From Desulfovibrio sp. OttesenSCG-928-G15 (GTDB lineage Bacteria; Desulfobacterota; Desulfovibrionia; Desulfovibrionales; Desulfovibrionaceae), in the NCBI GenBank assembly GCA_030266525.1, contig JAJDIC010000030.1, forward strand, positions 1-23,359: a stretch of DNA of 23,359 bases, written 5' to 3'. Shown one piece after another: positions 5,272 to 23,359 of this stretch (the first letter of the stretch is position 1; every line of letters begins with the position of its first letter). Both the position numbers and the translations under genes were made by a program. The notes under the pieces were generated by a model, which did not search any database, was not told where the DNA came from, and was given only the letters and a program-made list of their open reading frames with translations.

Positions 5272-6837
5272 TCAGGCTTTCAGGATAGCCTTGAGGTCTT
5301 CTTCCGGCGTGGTAATGGGGTGCAGGTCGAATTTTTCCACCAGCACGTTCAATACGTCTTTTGAGAAAAAGGCCGGGATGCTCGGCCCGATGTAGATGTT
5401 TTTCACACCGAGCGACAAGAGGGTCAGCAGGATGCAGACAGCCTTCTGCTCATACCAGGAAAGTACCAGCGTCAGGGGCAAATCGTTCACCCCGCAGTCA
5501 AAAGCGCCCGCCAGGGCAAGCGCTACCTGAATTGCGCCATACGCGTCGTTGCACTGCCCCATATCCAGTATGCGCGGAAAGGGGCCGATAGCGCCGATAG
5601 CGAGATCGTTAATCCTGTATTTGCCGCAGGCCAGGGTAAGCACCACGGTGTCTTGCGGAGCCTGTTTGACAAAATCGGTGTAGTAGTTGCGCCCCGGCTT
5701 TGCCCCGTCGCACCCGCCAACCAGGAAAAAGTGCTTGATCGCTCCGGCCTTCACCGCCTCGATGATGGTCGGCGCGTTGTCCAGAACCGTTTTGCGACCA
5801 AAGCCCGTTGTAACAACGCTGCCGCCGTTGATACCGGTAAGGGCCTTGTCTTCGCTGTAGCCGCCAAGCCTGAGAGCGTGCTCGATAAGGGCGCTGAAAT
5901 CCTTATGACCGTTCGGTTCAGCGGCAATGTGCCGCATTTCGGGGTAGGCCACCACGGAAGTTGTGTACACCCTGTCGCTGTAGCTCGCCTTGACCGGCAT
6001 CAGGCAGTTGGTCGTATACAGCAGCGGCGCGGGAATATTGTCAAATTCCTTTTGCTGGTTCTGCCAGGCCGTGCCGAAGTTGCCCTTGAGCTGGGCGTAT
6101 TTTTTCAGCTCCGGGTACCCGTGAGCGGGCAGCATTTCGCCGTGGGTGTAAATGTTGACGCCTTTGCCCTGAGTTTGTTCCAGCAGCATTTTCAGATCAT
6201 ACAGATCGTGCCCGGTAACGACGATAAAGGGGCCTTTTTCTATGGTCAGCGGAACCTGCACCGGCACGGGGTTGCCGTACGCGCCGGTGTTGGCCTCGTC
6301 AAGAAGGGCCATACATTTGAGGTTCACGCCGCCAAACTCCATCAACAGGCCCAGCCATTCGTCCACGGAATGCTCGTCAGCAAGGGCGGCCATGCCCTTT
6401 ACCAGCCAGGCGTCCACATCCGGGTCGCGCTTGCCGAGAACACGGGCGTGGTGCGCGTAAGCAGCCATGCCGCGCAGGCCGAAAAGCAGCGTGGAACGCA
6501 GGGAAACGGCGTTGGCATCGCCATGAAACAGGTCTTGCGTAGACACAGGCAGCTGCGCTTCGCCCCTTTTGGCCCTGATTGCCGCGATCAGGCCGCCAAG
6601 CCGGTCCACATCGAAGCTGACGTTGGTAATAGTGGTGAACAACCCGTCGCAAAGCAAGTCAACGCCTTCCGCGCAGGAGGCGTTCCTTTCGCTCATGAGC
6701 TTCGCCAGAGCGATCATCTCGCAGGTCAAAACATCCTGCTCATGCGCCACATCGGGCTTTTTGCCGCAAACGCCCGATACAGTACATCCTGTTCCTTTCG
6801 CCGTCTGTTCACACTGAAAGCAAAACATATTTTCCAT
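5272..6837 (-). CDS. hcp: Hybrid cluster protein (hydroxylamine/NO reductase, class I)
   Basis: Hcp (prismane protein) carries a cubane [4Fe-4S] and a 4Fe-2S-2O hybrid cluster and protects against nitrosative stress; hydroxylamine reduction and NO reduction have both been reported. The 521-residue product has the anaerobe-type N-terminal cluster motif C6-X2-C9-X8-C18-X5-C24. All eight hybrid-cluster ligands are present: H210 (VTGHDLYD), E234 (HGEMLPAHGY), C278 (TTNCLMP), C376 (VGGCDGAKPGRNYY, the persulfide cysteine), C404 (LACGKYRIN), C429 (MGQCNDAYGA), E463 and K465 (SWYEQKA). It is somewhat shorter than the 553-residue D. vulgaris protein but complete at both ends. The start at 6837 follows GGAGGGGATC. 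No ferredoxin/oxidoreductase partner (hcr) or hcpR-type regulator lies next to it in this window. Confidence 0.96.
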   Translation of the reverse strand: MENMFCFQCEQTAKGTGCTVSGVCGKKPDVAHEQDVLTCEMIALAKLMSERNASCAEGVDLLCDGLFTTITNVSFDVDRLGGLIAAIRAKRGEAQLPVSTQDLFHGDANAVSLRSTLLFGLRGMAAYAHHARVLGKRDPDVDAWLVKGMAALADEHSVDEWLGLLMEFGGVNLKCMALLDEANTGAYGNPVPVQVPLTIEKGPFIVVTGHDLYDLKMLLEQTQGKGVNIYTHGEMLPAHGYPELKKYAQLKGNFGTAWQNQQKEFDNIPAPLLYTTNCLMPVKASYSDRVYTTSVVAYPEMRHIAAEPNGHKDFSALIEHALRLGGYSEDKALTGINGGSVVTTGFGRKTVLDNAPTIIEAVKAGAIKHFFLVGGCDGAKPGRNYYTDFVKQAPQDTVVLTLACGKYRINDLAIGAIGPFPRILDMGQCNDAYGAIQVALALAGAFDCGVNDLPLTLVLSWYEQKAVCILLTLLSLGVKNIYIGPSIPAFFSKDVLNVLVEKFDLHPITTPEEDLKAILKA

Positions 6838-6994
6838 GATCCCCTCCGTAGGGTTTGTGGGTATGCGTGTGAGTAACCAGGCGGGTTCAGGGCAGGCGCT
6901 ATCGCCCCGCCCCATAACCCTCTTGCCGGACGGGGGGCACGTACCCGCCATCGGCCTCGTTCCCTAGAGGTACTCTCTTCGGCCAAACAAGGCC

Positions 6995-19739: not shown

Positions 19740-20129
19740 ATGTCTCGTTCTTTTTGGCGACTGGCAGTCCGTTCGGACTTTTCCTCGGCCCACGCGCTTC
19801 GGCATTATCAGGGCAAATGCGAAAGCCCGCACGGTCATAATTTTCAGGTGGAAGTGATGGTGGAAGGCGACACCCTGACTCCGGATACGGAACTGCTGCT
19901 GGATTTTTCCGATATCAAGCGGGACTTGAAAAGCGTGCTGGACACGCTGGACCACAAAGACCTGAACACCACCCCGCCCTTTGACAAAATCAACCCTTCC
20001 TCGGAAAATCTGGCCCGCCACATCTACCGGGAACTGGCCCCCCTGACCGCCCGGCATGGGGTGCACCTGTACAGCGTAACAGTGAGCGAAAAGGCGGCGC
20101 AAAGCGCCACCTATTATGAAATGGCATAG
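19740..20129 (+). CDS. queD: 6-carboxy-tetrahydropterin synthase (PTPS family)
   Basis: QueD makes 6-carboxy-5,6,7,8-tetrahydropterin from dihydroneopterin triphosphate, the first committed step to queuosine, the modified base of several tRNAs. The 129-residue length is typical. The zinc ligands H18 (SSAHAL), H31 and H33 (SPHGHNF), the catalytic C27 (GKCESPHGH), the D71-H72 pair (LDHKDLN) and the pterin-anchoring E117 (VSEKAA) are all present. AGGAG lies five to six bases before the ATG. No other queuosine gene is in the window. A sister 6-pyruvoyl-tetrahydropterin synthase cannot be excluded, but the CxxxHGH spacing is that of QueD. Confidence 0.9.
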   Translation: MSRSFWRLAVRSDFSSAHALRHYQGKCESPHGHNFQVEVMVEGDTLTPDTELLLDFSDIKRDLKSVLDTLDHKDLNTTPPFDKINPSSENLARHIYRELAPLTARHGVHLYSVTVSEKAAQSATYYEMA

Positions 20130-20240
20130 GTACTGTTCCCTCCGGCGTTAGGGAACCGCTGATTACATAACAATGCATAGCAAAACAGAACAACGCGCAT
20201 TGCCATAGAAACAGTTCTCCCACAACACGCAGGAAACGAT

Positions 20241-20283
20241 GAAGCGTTTCGCAACGGGGAACACCCCCGTCACGAAACGCTTC
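20241..20283. terminator. Stem-loop between convergent queD and the dsrF-like gene
   Basis: GAAGCGTTTCG (20241-20251) pairs with CGAAACGCTTC (20273-20283), with an inner ACGGGG/CCCCGT. It sits between two converging genes. No strong U tract follows in either direction, so its termination strength is uncertain. Confidence 0.65.
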
Positions 20284-20332
20284 TCTGTTGCCAAAAACTC
20301 TCTGAAGTAAACAGGAAATACTGAGTATTTCC

Positions 20333-20665
20333 TTAAAACGTCAATACCGACCCTTCCCCCAACACTTCCGGAATATCCGCAGCAGGGGTAACGGTGATAC
20401 CGTCCGGCAGCATGGATTCCTCAATGCCGCGTTGTTCCATGTCTTCTTTTACGGCGTGAATTTCCCCTTCTTCACCCAGGAAGCGGGCAAAAAGGTTTTT
20501 CACATAGCCGCTTTTGCCGAGCACGCTGTAAATGCCGTCGCCCAACAGGATGATTTTCACGTCCATACCGGCGCTGGAAAACATGGCCCAGGCCGAGCGG
20601 ATACCCAATGTGGCTTCTTCCTTCCCAAGGGGCTTGCGAATCAGAACAGTACAGGAACTAATCAT
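20333..20665 (-). CDS. DsrF/TusC-like sulfur-relay protein
   Basis: A 110-residue protein of the DsrE/DsrF-like fold. The marks are GDGIYSVLGKSG (42-53), equivalent to the DGV/DGVFQLL segment of TusC, and AVKEDMEQRGI (71-81), equivalent to the segment before the C-terminal strand. In DsrEFH and TusBCD the F/C subunit is mainly structural and need not carry a persulfide cysteine; the only cysteine here is C5, near the N-terminus. The ATG at 20665 is preceded by AAGGCGG. It is the last gene of the four-gene minus-strand run, 11 bases after the DsrE-like gene. The family call is good, the exact orthology is moderate, because DsrE-fold proteins have many paralogues. Confidence 0.75.
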   Translation of the reverse strand: MISSCTVLIRKPLGKEEATLGIRSAWAMFSSAGMDVKIILLGDGIYSVLGKSGYVKNLFARFLGEEGEIHAVKEDMEQRGIEESMLPDGITVTPAADIPEVLGEGSVLTF

Positions 20666-20676
20666 GGTACACCGCC

Positions 20677-21078
20677 TTATTGTCCTATGGTAAACGCCAC
20701 ATCGGAAAGCATGAGCATTTTGGTGAAAGAGTCACCAACATCACCCCAGGCAACGCCCTCGGCATAGTCCAGCCCTTCGGTTCCCCGGCTGTACTCCGTG
20801 GTGTGGCAGGTGACAAGCTTCGCGCCTTTGGCGGCAAGGTCGCCTATGGCAGCTTCCAGCACAAAAGAATCCATATGAGCGCGCAATTCGTCGGAAATGG
20901 GCGAGCGCCCTTCCTTGTAGGGAACATTGGCGTTGGCCAGGTTACAGCCGTTGCCGTATAAAAAGATATTGACCTTGTTGCCCCTGTCCAGAAGGGCTTT
21001 GGCCAACTTGACCGCAAAGACCGCGTCTTCGCTTTCCGTGCTGCCCGAAAGAAGCGCAAAGGTAACTGTTTTTGCCAT
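20677..21078 (-). CDS. DsrE/TusD-like sulfurtransferase subunit
   Basis: A 133-residue DsrE-family protein. In DsrEFH and TusBCD this is the subunit whose conserved cysteine carries a persulfide and passes sulfur to DsrC/TusE. Here the fold pattern TVTFALLSGSTESEDAVFAV with the helix KLAKALLDRG (24-33), the strand VNIFLYGNGC (36-45) and the motif KLVTCHTTEYSRG (87-99) can be seen. C91, followed by a -RG, is where the active cysteine of DsrE/TusD (C-x-x-A-A-x-x-RG) is expected. A second cysteine is C45. The SD GGAGG is six bases before the ATG at 21078. The gene lies 10 bases from its upstream neighbour and 11 from its downstream one. No dsrC/tusE or tusA is in the window. Confidence 0.8.
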   Translation of the reverse strand: MAKTVTFALLSGSTESEDAVFAVKLAKALLDRGNKVNIFLYGNGCNLANANVPYKEGRSPISDELRAHMDSFVLEAAIGDLAAKGAKLVTCHTTEYSRGTEGLDYAEGVAWGDVGDSFTKMLMLSDVAFTIGQ

Positions 21079-21088
21079 TGTACGCCTC

Positions 21089-21370
21089 CTACAGCATTAT
21101 CACGGTTTCGAAATCTTCCAGCAGCCCGGCCATTTCGTCGTAATCCACGACTTCCACGTCATCGCCCGGGTCAAGCTGCCTTGCCTCAACAGCATCTTTT
21201 GCCGCATAAAAACTGTCCACATCCATGTCGGCAAAACGCTGCAACCCGGCTTCGCTGGAAAAAAAGACGCCGTCCGTCACAAAAAGGACGACTTTTTCGT
21301 CATCATCCGCGCTGAGCATAGCGAACTGCCGGACAGACTCACTGCTTGGCTTGTTGAGAATATAGAGCAT
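21089..21370 (-). CDS. DsrH/TusB-like sulfur-relay protein
   Basis: A 93-residue protein that starts MLYILNKPSSES and has KVVLFVTDGVFFSSE (26-40), which lines up with the opening and the 'LLIEDGV' strand of DsrH/TusB. It has no cysteine at all. DsrH of Allochromatium uses a conserved cysteine, but E. coli TusB also lacks one, so a structural role is the likelier one. The ATG at 21370 follows GGAAGGAA. Its place between an OsmC-like gene and dsrE- and dsrF-like genes makes the three-subunit reading stronger than the sequence alone would. The unusually acidic C-terminal half (DPGDDVEVVDYDEMAGLLEDF) is a feature of this copy. Confidence 0.72.
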   Translation of the reverse strand: MLYILNKPSSESVRQFAMLSADDDEKVVLFVTDGVFFSSEAGLQRFADMDVDSFYAAKDAVEARQLDPGDDVEVVDYDEMAGLLEDFETVIML

Positions 21371-21405
21371 GGTTTTCCTTCCTGTCCGTGAGAATGTGGT
21401 CGGTT

Positions 21406-21843
21406 TTAATCAATAAGCTCAATATCATAATCCATCTCTGTGCCCTCTTCCATGGTGTAGGTCACAAGAGAGCCGCGCATGAGCCCCCGACGAATGGGGT
21501 CAAACGCTTCCTGGGTAATGCCGTCGGCCTTTACTTCCACCTTGAGGGTATAAGGACCGAACTTGGTGCGCATGGCAGAGTCCTTTTCCTTTTCCACTTC
21601 GATGCTGGCCTTGAGCGAAACGGGCGTTCCCCCGGCGCGGATAATGTCGTTCCACAAAGAGTTGGTGAAGCAGGCCAGCGCACCGGCGGCAAGAAGGCGG
21701 CCGCCCATATGTTCGTCAGCCTTCTCCTCCGGGGTAAGCTTGTCAGAGCGGTAGTCAATCACGGGGTAGGCCACAGAGCCGGTTTTCAGTTCCCAGTGGG
21801 AACCGGAATCACGGGTCAATTCCAGATCAAAAGCGTGAGCCAT
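21406..21843 (-). CDS. OsmC-family protein
   Basis: A 145-residue protein of the OsmC/Ohr superfamily, whose classical members reduce organic hydroperoxides with two cysteines. The first cysteine region is present as GGRLLAAGALACFTNSLW (48-64), with C58 in place of the peroxidatic cysteine. The second, normally in a C-P-V-x-x-A-L motif, is replaced by RGSLVTYTMEEG (123-134) and the protein has no other cysteine. So it should not work as an ordinary OsmC/Ohr peroxidase; a single-cysteine thiol or persulfide role is possible. The ATG at 21843 follows AAGGAG. It is the first gene of the operon with the DsrH, DsrE and DsrF-like genes and is divergent from the sigma-54 regulator, with a sigma-54 promoter candidate upstream. 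Confidence 0.78.
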   Translation of the reverse strand: MAHAFDLELTRDSGSHWELKTGSVAYPVIDYRSDKLTPEEKADEHMGGRLLAAGALACFTNSLWNDIIRAGGTPVSLKASIEVEKEKDSAMRTKFGPYTLKVEVKADGITQEAFDPIRRGLMRGSLVTYTMEEGTEMDYDIELID

Positions 21844-21915: not shown

Positions 21916-21939
21916 CGTTCGTGCATTTATGCACTAACG
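21916..21939. promoter_or_regulatory. Inverted repeat in the OsmC-operon leader
   Basis: CGTTCGTGCAT (21916-21926) and ATGCACTAACG (21929-21939) form 11-bp arms with one mismatch and a TT centre. It would lie at about +8 to +31 from the predicted sigma-54 start, where it could be an operator or a 5'-UTR hairpin. Confidence 0.5.
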
Positions 21940-21954
21940 TACTCCCGAGTCCAT

Positions 21955-21972
21955 TTAGCATATTCCATACCA
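21955..21972 (-). promoter_or_regulatory. Sigma-54 (RpoN) promoter candidate
   Basis: On the minus strand TGGTATGGAATATGCT has the invariant GG-N10-GC and matches the consensus TGGCACG-N4-TTGCW at 9 of 12 defined positions. It faces the OsmC-DsrHEF operon; the start site would be near 21946, leaving a leader of about 100 bases. The adjacent gene encodes a sigma-54 activator, which makes the site more credible. Confidence 0.65.
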
Positions 21973-22076
21973 CATCCTTTTTTATCCCTCTGATGCACAC
22001 TCCAAAGTCACGTATGATGTATGGGAAACGGGTAATCAGAGTTTTTTACTCCACCTGCCTGCGCACATTATTCGCA

Positions 22077-22109
22077 TTGACAGAAGACGAAAAGCCTTGC
22101 CAATATAGC
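22077..22109 (+). promoter_or_regulatory. Candidate sigma-70 promoter of the regulator gene
   Basis: A perfect TTGACA (22077-22082) is followed by CAATAT at 18 bases or TATAGC at 21 bases. The -10 is imperfect. Transcription would start within or next to the 16-bp palindrome. Confidence 0.4.
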
Positions 22110-22123
22110 GACAAATTTGTCGC
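22108..22123. promoter_or_regulatory. Perfect 16-bp palindrome, likely operator/enhancer
   Basis: GCGACAAATTTGTCGC is exactly self-complementary. It ends 25 bases before the regulator ATG and is about 165-175 bases upstream of the predicted sigma-54 start of the divergent operon. That is a suitable place for both an enhancer site of a Fis-type HTH and self-repression. Confidence 0.6.
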
Positions 22124-22148
22124 ACATTTCAGAAAGGCGGGTTCCCCC

Positions 22149-23359
22149 ATGTCGCAAGTTCTGTCCATCGAAGAAGTCCGCAGCAAGCTTTTCAACGCCG
22201 AAAGCACGCTCACCCGCCTGCTCAACCGCCTCCCGGGAATGGCCTACCGCTGCCGGGTGACGGACGATTTTCAATACAGCCTTGAATTCGCCAGCCGGGG
22301 CTGTCAGGCGATGATCGGCATTCCCCCCGAAGAATATAACTCCAACCATATTGAACAGATGATGCCCGACGCAGACAGGCTCCGGGCGCGCAACGCCATG
22401 AAAAACGCCATCCTTGCAGGCAAGGCCTACAAAATTTACTATCGAATAACCATGCCCGAGACAGGGCAAGAAAAATGGATATGGGATCAGGGAGAGGGCC
22501 TGTACGACGACAGCGGAAACTGTCTTTTTGTCGAAGGCATCATGATGGACGTTACCGAGCAGAAGAGCAAAGAACTGTCGCTCAAGGCAGAAAACAGGAA
22601 GCTTCGCCTGTCCATCAAGGATTCATACGGCCTTGGCAAAATCATCGGCAAAAGCGCTGCCATGCAACGCTGTTACCGCCTGCTGCTCAGGGCCGCGCAA
22701 AGCGACACGAATATCGCGCTTTACGGGGAAACCGGCGTGGGCAAGGAACTGGCAGCCCGGACCATGCATGACCTTTCCAACGTAAAAGGCCGCTTTGTGC
22801 CGGTAAACTGCGCGGCAATTCCCGATCAATTGCTGGAAAGCGAATTCTTCGGCTACATGAAAGGGGCTTTTTCCGGCGCGACCACCAATCACAACGGCTA
22901 TCTGGCAGCTGCCAACGGCGGTACGCTCTTTTTGGATGAAGTGGGCGAACTGCCCCTCAGGCTTCAAGGCAAGCTGCTTCGCGCGCTCGAAAGCCGCACC
23001 TATACCCCTGTCGGCTCTTCGGAAGTGCGCCAGTCCGACTTCCGCCTGGTCTGCGCGACAAACCGCAGTCTGGAGGAAATGGTTCGCCGGGGCGAAATGC
23101 GCTCGGACTTTTATTACCGCATCCATGTGCTGCCCATCCATTTGCCCGCCCTGCGCGAACGCATGGGAGATATCCCCCTTTTGGTGGACGCTTATGCCAG
23201 AGCCAGAGGAGTAACAGCCCAGCTTCCGGCCCCGGTCTTGATGGCAATGGAGCAGTATACCTGGCCCGGCAACGTGCGCGAGCTGCAAAACGCGCTGGAC
23301 AGGTATTGGGCCTTTGGCGAAATGGGCCTGCACACCAACCTGCTGCACGATATCCACAT
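22149..23359 (+). CDS. PAS-domain sigma-54-dependent transcriptional activator (3' end outside window)
   Basis: An enhancer-binding protein that uses ATP to open sigma-54 promoters. The frame is open from the ATG at 22149 (after AAAGGCGGG) to the window edge, 403 codons. The N-terminal part (about 20-140) is a PAS sensor domain, ending in the PAC-type GIMMDVTEQKSKELSL. The AAA+ domain starts near 165 with IIGKSAAMQ. Walker A is GETGVGK (193-199), the sigma-54 contact loop is GAFSGA (239-244) rather than the usual GAFTGA, Walker B is GTLFLDEVGE (258-267), and sensor/arginine-finger parts include FYYRIHVLPIHLPALRER (321-338) and WPGNVREL (372-379). The C-terminal HTH is beyond the window. There is no receiver domain, so the signal is sensed directly or by a partner. 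It is divergent from the OsmC-Dsr operon. Confidence 0.93.
   Translation, partial: MSQVLSIEEVRSKLFNAESTLTRLLNRLPGMAYRCRVTDDFQYSLEFASRGCQAMIGIPPEEYNSNHIEQMMPDADRLRARNAMKNAILAGKAYKIYYRITMPETGQEKWIWDQGEGLYDDSGNCLFVEGIMMDVTEQKSKELSLKAENRKLRLSIKDSYGLGKIIGKSAAMQRCYRLLLRAAQSDTNIALYGETGVGKELAARTMHDLSNVKGRFVPVNCAAIPDQLLESEFFGYMKGAFSGATTNHNGYLAAANGGTLFLDEVGELPLRLQGKLLRALESRTYTPVGSSEVRQSDFRLVCATNRSLEEMVRRGEMRSDFYYRIHVLPIHLPALRERMGDIPLLVDAYARARGVTAQLPAPVLMAMEQYTWPGNVRELQNALDRYWAFGEMGLHTNLLHDIH

Follow-up and report, generated by a model that had tools for sequence, protein, structure and literature searches.

Within a 23,359-nucleotide stretch of DNA from Desulfovibrio sp. OttesenSCG-928-G15 (contig JAJDIC010000030.1; the whole stretch is hereafter called the window), four adjacent genes encode an OsmC-like protein and three small proteins resembling DsrH, DsrE and DsrF. 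A sequence-only reading had proposed that they form a non-standard sulfur-relay module. The set of OsmC with DsrE/F/H-like proteins is indeed real and recurrent, but it is not a stand-alone module: in relatives it is one of two exchangeable cassettes of a cluster that also encodes an alkaline phosphatase-superfamily (AlkP) enzyme of family PF01663, an importer and a sigma54 activator. We give about an even chance (roughly 0.5) to the reading that the four genes make up one thiol or sulfur relay, a one-cysteine OsmC plus a divergent DsrEFH-like complex, that serves the AlkP enzyme. Such a DsrEFH-type relay would be exchangeable with a lipoyl relay, and the probable substrate of the AlkP enzyme is an organosulfur compound taken up by the importer, a chemistry and a substrate that we infer.

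The four genes form a real, conserved unit. An initial contig search gave only five loci, which we used as seeds. A profile of the DsrE-like protein was then searched in four genome groups, and the strong places were pooled with the seeds. Strong matches were found in 18 of 247 genomes from the class of a Desulfovibrio carrier (21 had any match), 19 of 288 from the family of a Desulfovibrio carrier, one of 199 from one Chloroflexi class and one of 297 from the phylum of a Desulfarculus metagenome-assembled genome (MAG), the last two being seeds themselves. The pool comprised 27 strong places in 24 genomes, so the set is not unique to the window's genome. Genes for OsmC, DsrH, DsrE and DsrF were present at all 27 places; OsmC leads the set at 11 of them and closes it at 16. 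The set is sporadic among the searched genomes, not universal. Weak matches (E 1e-3 to 2e-10) were left out of the counts (three of the 21 genomes in the class, three of four in the Chloroflexi and 11 of 12 in the Desulfarculus phylum) and turned out to be other DsrE-fold proteins; at loci L055, L056, L057 and L058 the DsrE-like proteins so matched stand alone and bear CLTC or a similar CxxC motif. A single fused open reading frame (ORF) encodes both OsmC and DsrH, joined by a proline-rich linker, in the Desulfarculus MAG (L003, 3946-4782), which suggests that the two proteins are in physical contact.

To view the surroundings of the set, we extended the loci to about 19 kb where possible. The neighbours in relatives are the AlkP enzyme, EamA and YitT membrane proteins, a small protein that we call F12, a PAS-sigma54 activator and one of three importers, of the BCCT, taurine/SsuA-like ABC or TRAP type. 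These parts vary, and not every locus has all of them. The AlkP gene lay within the extended stretch in 21 of 24 loci, and 22 of the 24 carrier genomes encode the enzyme somewhere. Its linkage to the cassette extends across Desulfovibrionia, a Chloroflexi, a Desulfarculus and a Proteobacteria MAG, and across the three importer types. The sole set carrier among the 199 Chloroflexi-class genomes is likewise the source of that class's three best AlkP matches (44-56% identity over nearly full length), two of them on the contig of the set; the next best, in genome G361, reached 48% over one half. At the Chloroflexi locus L002 the neighbours include a coenzyme A (CoA) ligase, an enoyl-CoA hydratase, a hydroxyacyl-CoA dehydrogenase and a thiolase, and the substrate may therefore not be constant in its carbon part. 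Sigma54 activator homologues adjoin the cassette in relatives, and a sigma54-type site (at least 9 of 12 positions) precedes it in all eight OsmC-first loci examined and in none of three BCCT-type loci, against a background of 196 hits in 4000 random 250-bp windows. A site of this type also precedes the lipoyl cassette of L103. For the ABC importer parts, the best NCBIfam names were SaoA and SaoP of SAO organometal transport (reviewed in PMC13188914); with 227-229 of 360 and 143-159 of 295 bits they fell far under the cut-offs, and we set this assignment aside. Desulfovibrio sp. DV has the cassette twice at L001 (2421-3458 and 7949-9447); about 5.5 kb separate the copies, and AlkP and F12 lie in between.

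The AlkP enzyme is more widespread than the set. It was detected in 67 of 285 genomes (in two of them at just 31-32% identity), of which 17 carry the set and 50 do not. We inspected the AlkP neighbourhood in 20 of these 50. Lpd together with OsmC and/or GcvH was encoded there in 15, OsmC alone in one and neither in four; none of the 24 set-bearing loci contained Lpd or GcvH. At the genome level, an OsmC of the lipoyl-partner type was present in 17 of 17 AlkP-only genomes versus 3 of 16 set-bearing genomes tested (Fisher P = 9.8e-7, uncorrected for kinship). The match in G187 comes from the OsmC within that genome's set and is left uncounted; with it the figure would be 4 of 16. The DsrEFH-like carrier stands in place of a lipoyl carrier, and the set is one of two exchangeable cassettes of the cluster. 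The Lpd and GcvH of the alternative cassette exceed their equivalog cut-offs. We considered glycine cleavage as the role of this cassette and rejected it because gcvP lies elsewhere in 33 of 33 genomes and glycine-cleavage operons have their own GcvH in 10 of 10 cases examined (and their own Lpd in 7 of 10). LbpA of the sHdr pathway offers a parallel, being described as a GcvH-like lipoyl carrier with a role outside glycine cleavage, encoded beside sulfur-trafficking genes (PMC6067878); it differs in that the GcvH of the alternative cassette passes the gcvH cut-off. Genes for LipB and LipA adjoin the OsmC-Lpd-GcvH cassette at L092 (4411-5890) and similar loci.

One genome may record a loss of the set. 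G105 is close kin of two carriers, and a slot of about 500 bp separates its AlkP and F12 genes (L088, 8404-8903). Weak traces of dsrE (35.6 bits against L041 and 41.0 against L040) and of dsrH (39.2 bits against L040) could be detected there, compared with at most 28.3 bits in 200 shuffles each, and the slot is possibly a decayed cassette. G105 retains a lipoyl-type OsmC with Lpd elsewhere.

The two types of OsmC also differ in their residues. The peroxidatic cysteine (Cys58 in the window; C59 in E. coli) is kept in all proteins of both types, including 28 of 28 cassette proteins. At the position of the resolving cysteine (E. coli C125), all 20 distinct genes of the lipoyl-partner type encode cysteine (21 aligned rows, one G070 gene occupying two), and all 28 cassette proteins have serine. 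The second cysteine is present only in the lipoyl-partner type, and the cassette OsmC cannot form the disulfide. The catalytic glutamate (E50 in E. coli, a role we take from PMC5962072) is arginine in the same 28 proteins.

The partner enzyme has a feature of its own. The C-terminus of F12 reads REPW[DE]KHDCA in 35 of 35 sequences, placing a cysteine in the penultimate position, and in four TRAP-type loci that lack F12 the AlkP enzyme itself ends in HDCA. F12 resembles AlkP enzymes in their C-terminal region (hhalign E 4.6e-13; Foldseek best E 1.8e-3, a modest value), and its tail is predicted with low confidence and is probably flexible. Among 120 listed of 782 relatives of the fused AlkP, 85 have the penultimate cysteine; a G.DC motif lies close to the N-terminus in 114. 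Residues T53, D368, H372, D422, H423 and H557 of AlkP, which we take to be the metal site, are kept in at least 39 of 41 sequences. The tail recalls the carrier arm of DsrC/TusE, which likewise bears a penultimate C-terminal cysteine; in A. vinosum DsrC this thiol is reported to take sulfur from DsrE (PMC3397948). The difference is that F12 is AlkP-like, or that the tail sits on the AlkP enzyme itself: the best fold and profile matches of F12 were AlkP-superfamily enzymes, with no DsrC profile run. In the open-access full-text literature searched we found no description of an AlkP enzyme with a penultimate-cysteine tail, nor of a cluster holding the cassette. The Chloroflexi MAG with locus L004 (G004) has 26 AlkP matches, at least two of which align to the end of the tail-bearing query.

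Several observations weigh against a relay that serves AlkP. No AlkP gene was seen within the window, and its presence in the window's own genome is what we infer from relatives. Among the extended stretches, AlkP was missing from L004, as well as from L038 and L043, which stop at contig ends; among carrier genomes it was not found in G240, whose locus lies at a contig end, or in G809, a genome of 1.7 Mb. Four AlkP loci (L088, L095, L099 and L105) have neither cassette nearby, L095 and L099 being on short contigs. The swap is not strict, as G078, G196 and G070 carry the set and the other OsmC type together. One of the three relatives used for the G105 traces, L049, gave nothing above its shuffles. 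The penultimate cysteine is absent from 35 of the 120 listed AlkP relatives, and the AlkP beside the cassette in L002 lacks the HDCA tail (other AlkP copies on that contig align to the query's end). Finally, dsrA (reductive and oxidative types taken together) passed its cut-off in all five carrier genomes tested, including two Chloroflexi MAGs, compared with only 9 of 199 genomes of the one Chloroflexi class; this favours a last step to the Dsr pathway, but because dsrA is common in Desulfovibrionia, the link is informative only in the Chloroflexi.

The sequence-only reading had likened the three small proteins to DsrEFH/TusBCD, and this holds for the subunits, though not at the level of the TusBCD/type I profile cut-offs. 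Against Pfam, the DsrH-like (E 1.8e-5) and DsrE-like (E 8.5e-6) proteins passed the cut-offs of DsrH and DsrE, but the OsmC-like protein, at E 3e-5, stayed below its own (24.8 of 27.5 bits); a profile search retrieved solved OsmC structures from the PDB at about 1e-4. The DsrF-like protein matched DsrH over cut-off (2.5e-5) and DsrE under it (7e-4). Its predicted structure has the DsrE fold (predicted local distance difference test score 92.5), and its best solved matches include YchN, A. vinosum DsrF and DsrH, and TusC. Single-sequence PDB searches with the DsrE-like and DsrF-like proteins found no relatives; detecting these took profiles and the structure model. Sequence comparison paired the subunits with their E, H and F counterparts in two other DsrEFH sets (L031 and L059) at 24-29% identity, not with unrelated DsrE-fold paralogues, although H of L059 went unmatched. 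Both sets have a TusA-like neighbour, judged by eye; given their 25-41% identity to E. coli TusBCD, they could belong to type I rather than type II.

The set is not DsrEFH type I. It shares with type I and TusBCD the DsrE-fold subunits, the joint encoding of E, F and H, and a DsrE cysteine, Cys91, that aligns with TusD Cys78. All NCBIfam cut-offs were missed, however (TIGR03010, 14.2 of 94.15 bits; TIGR03011, 31.5 of 49.2, which is the TusB model against the DsrH-like protein; TIGR03012, 21.1 of 89.25), and the neighbours are different. E. coli TusBCD gave no full-length match, the best being TusD over 51 residues (E 0.005). No equivalent of DsrH Cys20 was found in 18 aligned sequences, in which only column 72 has a recurrent cysteine (14 of 18). 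The retention of the persulfide cysteine Cys91, pointed out earlier from the sequence, proved invariant in 40 of 40 aligned relatives. Cys45 was considered as a second redox cysteine of DsrE and rejected, as it is not universal; a cysteine near the DsrF N-terminus occurs in only 13 of 20 sequences.

The set is probably not type II either. DsrEFH was noted at the outset as known from sulfur oxidisers, a restriction that is no longer held: type II is reported from sulfate reducers, in synteny with tusA and yeeE/yedE and with an active Cys67, and is proposed there as a marker of sulfur oxidation (PMC13293266, May 2026). Like the type II/YTD cluster, the set has three small E/F/H-like subunits and a conserved DsrE cysteine, and it occurs in bacteria with apparent dsrAB-type metabolism. 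Unlike that cluster, it always includes OsmC, which is absent from the main text of that paper, and is linked to AlkP, importer and sigma54 genes; its DsrE cysteine also lies further on, Cys91 versus Cys67. As the sequence-only reading had noted, dsrC and tusA are missing from the set: TusA genes are present in all 24 carrier genomes, but none lies within 20 kb of the set on the same contig, a view limited by draft contig ends (the nearest are about 24 kb away in G056 and 27 kb in G110). Neither TusA nor DsrC was found among the 22 window proteins in the Pfam scan, nor was yeeE/yedE, for which no profile search was made in relatives. A third kind of DsrEFH-like relay, one tied to a one-cysteine OsmC, is the probable identity of the set.

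How might such a relay work? The importer would bring in a small, probably sulfur-containing compound, from which the AlkP enzyme would move a group to the tail thiol; the adduct would then move to OsmC Cys58. With lipoyl partners, OsmC would close its disulfide, to be reduced by lipoyl-GcvH and Lpd. In the cassette version, DsrE Cys91 would receive the cargo from OsmC Cys58 and hand it to the Dsr pathway (DsrC/DsrAB). DsrE proteins are reported to carry persulfide (PMC3397948, PMC13293266), and DsrE3A thiosulfonate (PMC4175335). A bolder version, which we regard as a long shot, is that the cluster gives Dsr-pathway bacteria a new way to use small organosulfur compounds: the AlkP-superfamily enzyme, as a metal-dependent transferase, would put a sulfonyl-type group on the DsrC-like penultimate cysteine, and OsmC with the DsrEFH-type or lipoyl relay would deliver this group to the Dsr pathway, with no need for ATP-dependent sulfate activation. 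If this bolder version is true, a DsrEFH of the third kind would be a substrate-specific adaptor, not a sulfur-oxidation marker. A divergent DsrEFH found with OsmC beside AlkP may mean something else and could mislead predictions of sulfur oxidation based on type II. The exchange of persulfide- and lipoyl-type partners, with the OsmC resolving cysteine matching the partner, is a natural experiment on what one-cysteine OsmC does. The AlkP enzyme with its penultimate-cysteine tail may be the sign of a pathway not yet known, present in some Chloroflexi and in Desulfovibrio of gut and sediment.

Other explanations deserve consideration. The cassette could serve redox defence, with OsmC reducing organic peroxides or reactive sulfur species, the DsrEFH-like complex acting as reductant or persulfide sink, and AlkP a mere neighbour. 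OsmC/Ohr enzymes are known peroxidases that form a disulfide and are regenerated by lipoyl proteins (PMC4486171), the cassette protein keeps their first cysteine, and the alternative cassette joins OsmC to just such partners, Lpd and GcvH. Yet the cassette OsmC lacks both the resolving cysteine and the catalytic glutamate and has a DsrEFH-like partner instead; a Cys-to-Ser change at either Ohr cysteine is reported to cause a drastic loss of activity (PMC4486171). With an AlkP linkage that spans several phyla and three importer types, we consider redox defence unlikely. That same linkage bears on the idea that cassette and AlkP share no pathway and meet only as a side effect of neighbourhoods that are mobile or have regulation in common. 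The four AlkP clusters with neither cassette nearby and the 50 of 67 AlkP-positive genomes without the set fit this idea, but the persistence of the linkage from Desulfovibrionia to the Chloroflexi, Desulfarculus and Proteobacteria MAGs, and the coincidence of the only Chloroflexi-class set with that class's three best AlkP matches, make the idea unlikely.

It is also rather unlikely that the complex is a DsrEFH of known kind, either type II or a subtype not yet recognised, handing sulfane sulfur to DsrC in an oxidative Dsr pathway. The three subunits, the conserved cysteine, dsrA in the five carriers and the report of type II from sulfate reducers (PMC13293266) all suit it; the distance from tusA, the constant presence of an OsmC that the main text of that paper lacks, the 24-29% identity to the two tusA-linked sets and the AlkP, importer and sigma54 linkage do not. 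An equivalent of TusBCD for tRNA 2-thiouridine is very improbable: the fold and weak profile similarity agree, and some databases so name DsrE-like relatives, but TusB, TusC and TusD cut-offs were all missed, E. coli TusBCD had no full-length match, and occurrence in 18 of 247 and 19 of 288 genomes is sporadic. The AlkP-serving relay remains the reading we prefer.

At the window locus, the minus-strand order and the gaps of 35, 10 and 11 bases given by the sequence-only reading agreed to the base with our coordinates.

Features of the cassette and its upstream region in the window
Feature	Position	Strand	Remarks
OsmC-like gene	21406..21843	-	145 aa ORF; Cys58 is the sole cysteine
DsrH/TusB-like gene	21089..21370	-	93 aa; without cysteine; Pfam DsrH over cut-off
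DsrE/TusD-like gene	20677..21078	-	133 aa; Cys91 aligns with TusD Cys78, with about 12 extra residues ahead of it
DsrF-like gene	20333..20665	-	110 aa; sequence pairing and predicted structure
Sigma54-type -24/-12 site TGGTATGGAATATGCT	21957..21972	-	Upstream of OsmC; motif match
PAS-sigma54 activator	21921..23357	+	Divergent from OsmC; runs off the window; Sigma54_activat 9e-62, PAS_3

The activator ORF opens at 21921, and by eye the ATG at 22149 is the likelier start. The sigma54-type site was the single match in the window search (0.33 expected), which is weak alone. The sequence-only reading presumed the source to be a sulfate reducer; the nearest named relatives are Desulfovibrio and Solidesulfovibrio. 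A very stable hairpin lies 3' of the DsrF-like gene (20239-20285, minus strand); the 106-nt stretch folds at -49.1 kcal/mol (z -7.8), with no clear T run behind. Convergent with the cassette is a gene for a QueD-type protein (19740-20129, plus strand; 97.0 bits versus an equivalog cut-off of 89.25). Elsewhere, the window encodes a CbiK chelatase family protein, truncated by the window start, and a prismane/hybrid-cluster family protein (5272-6951, minus strand; Pfam 1.9e-151).

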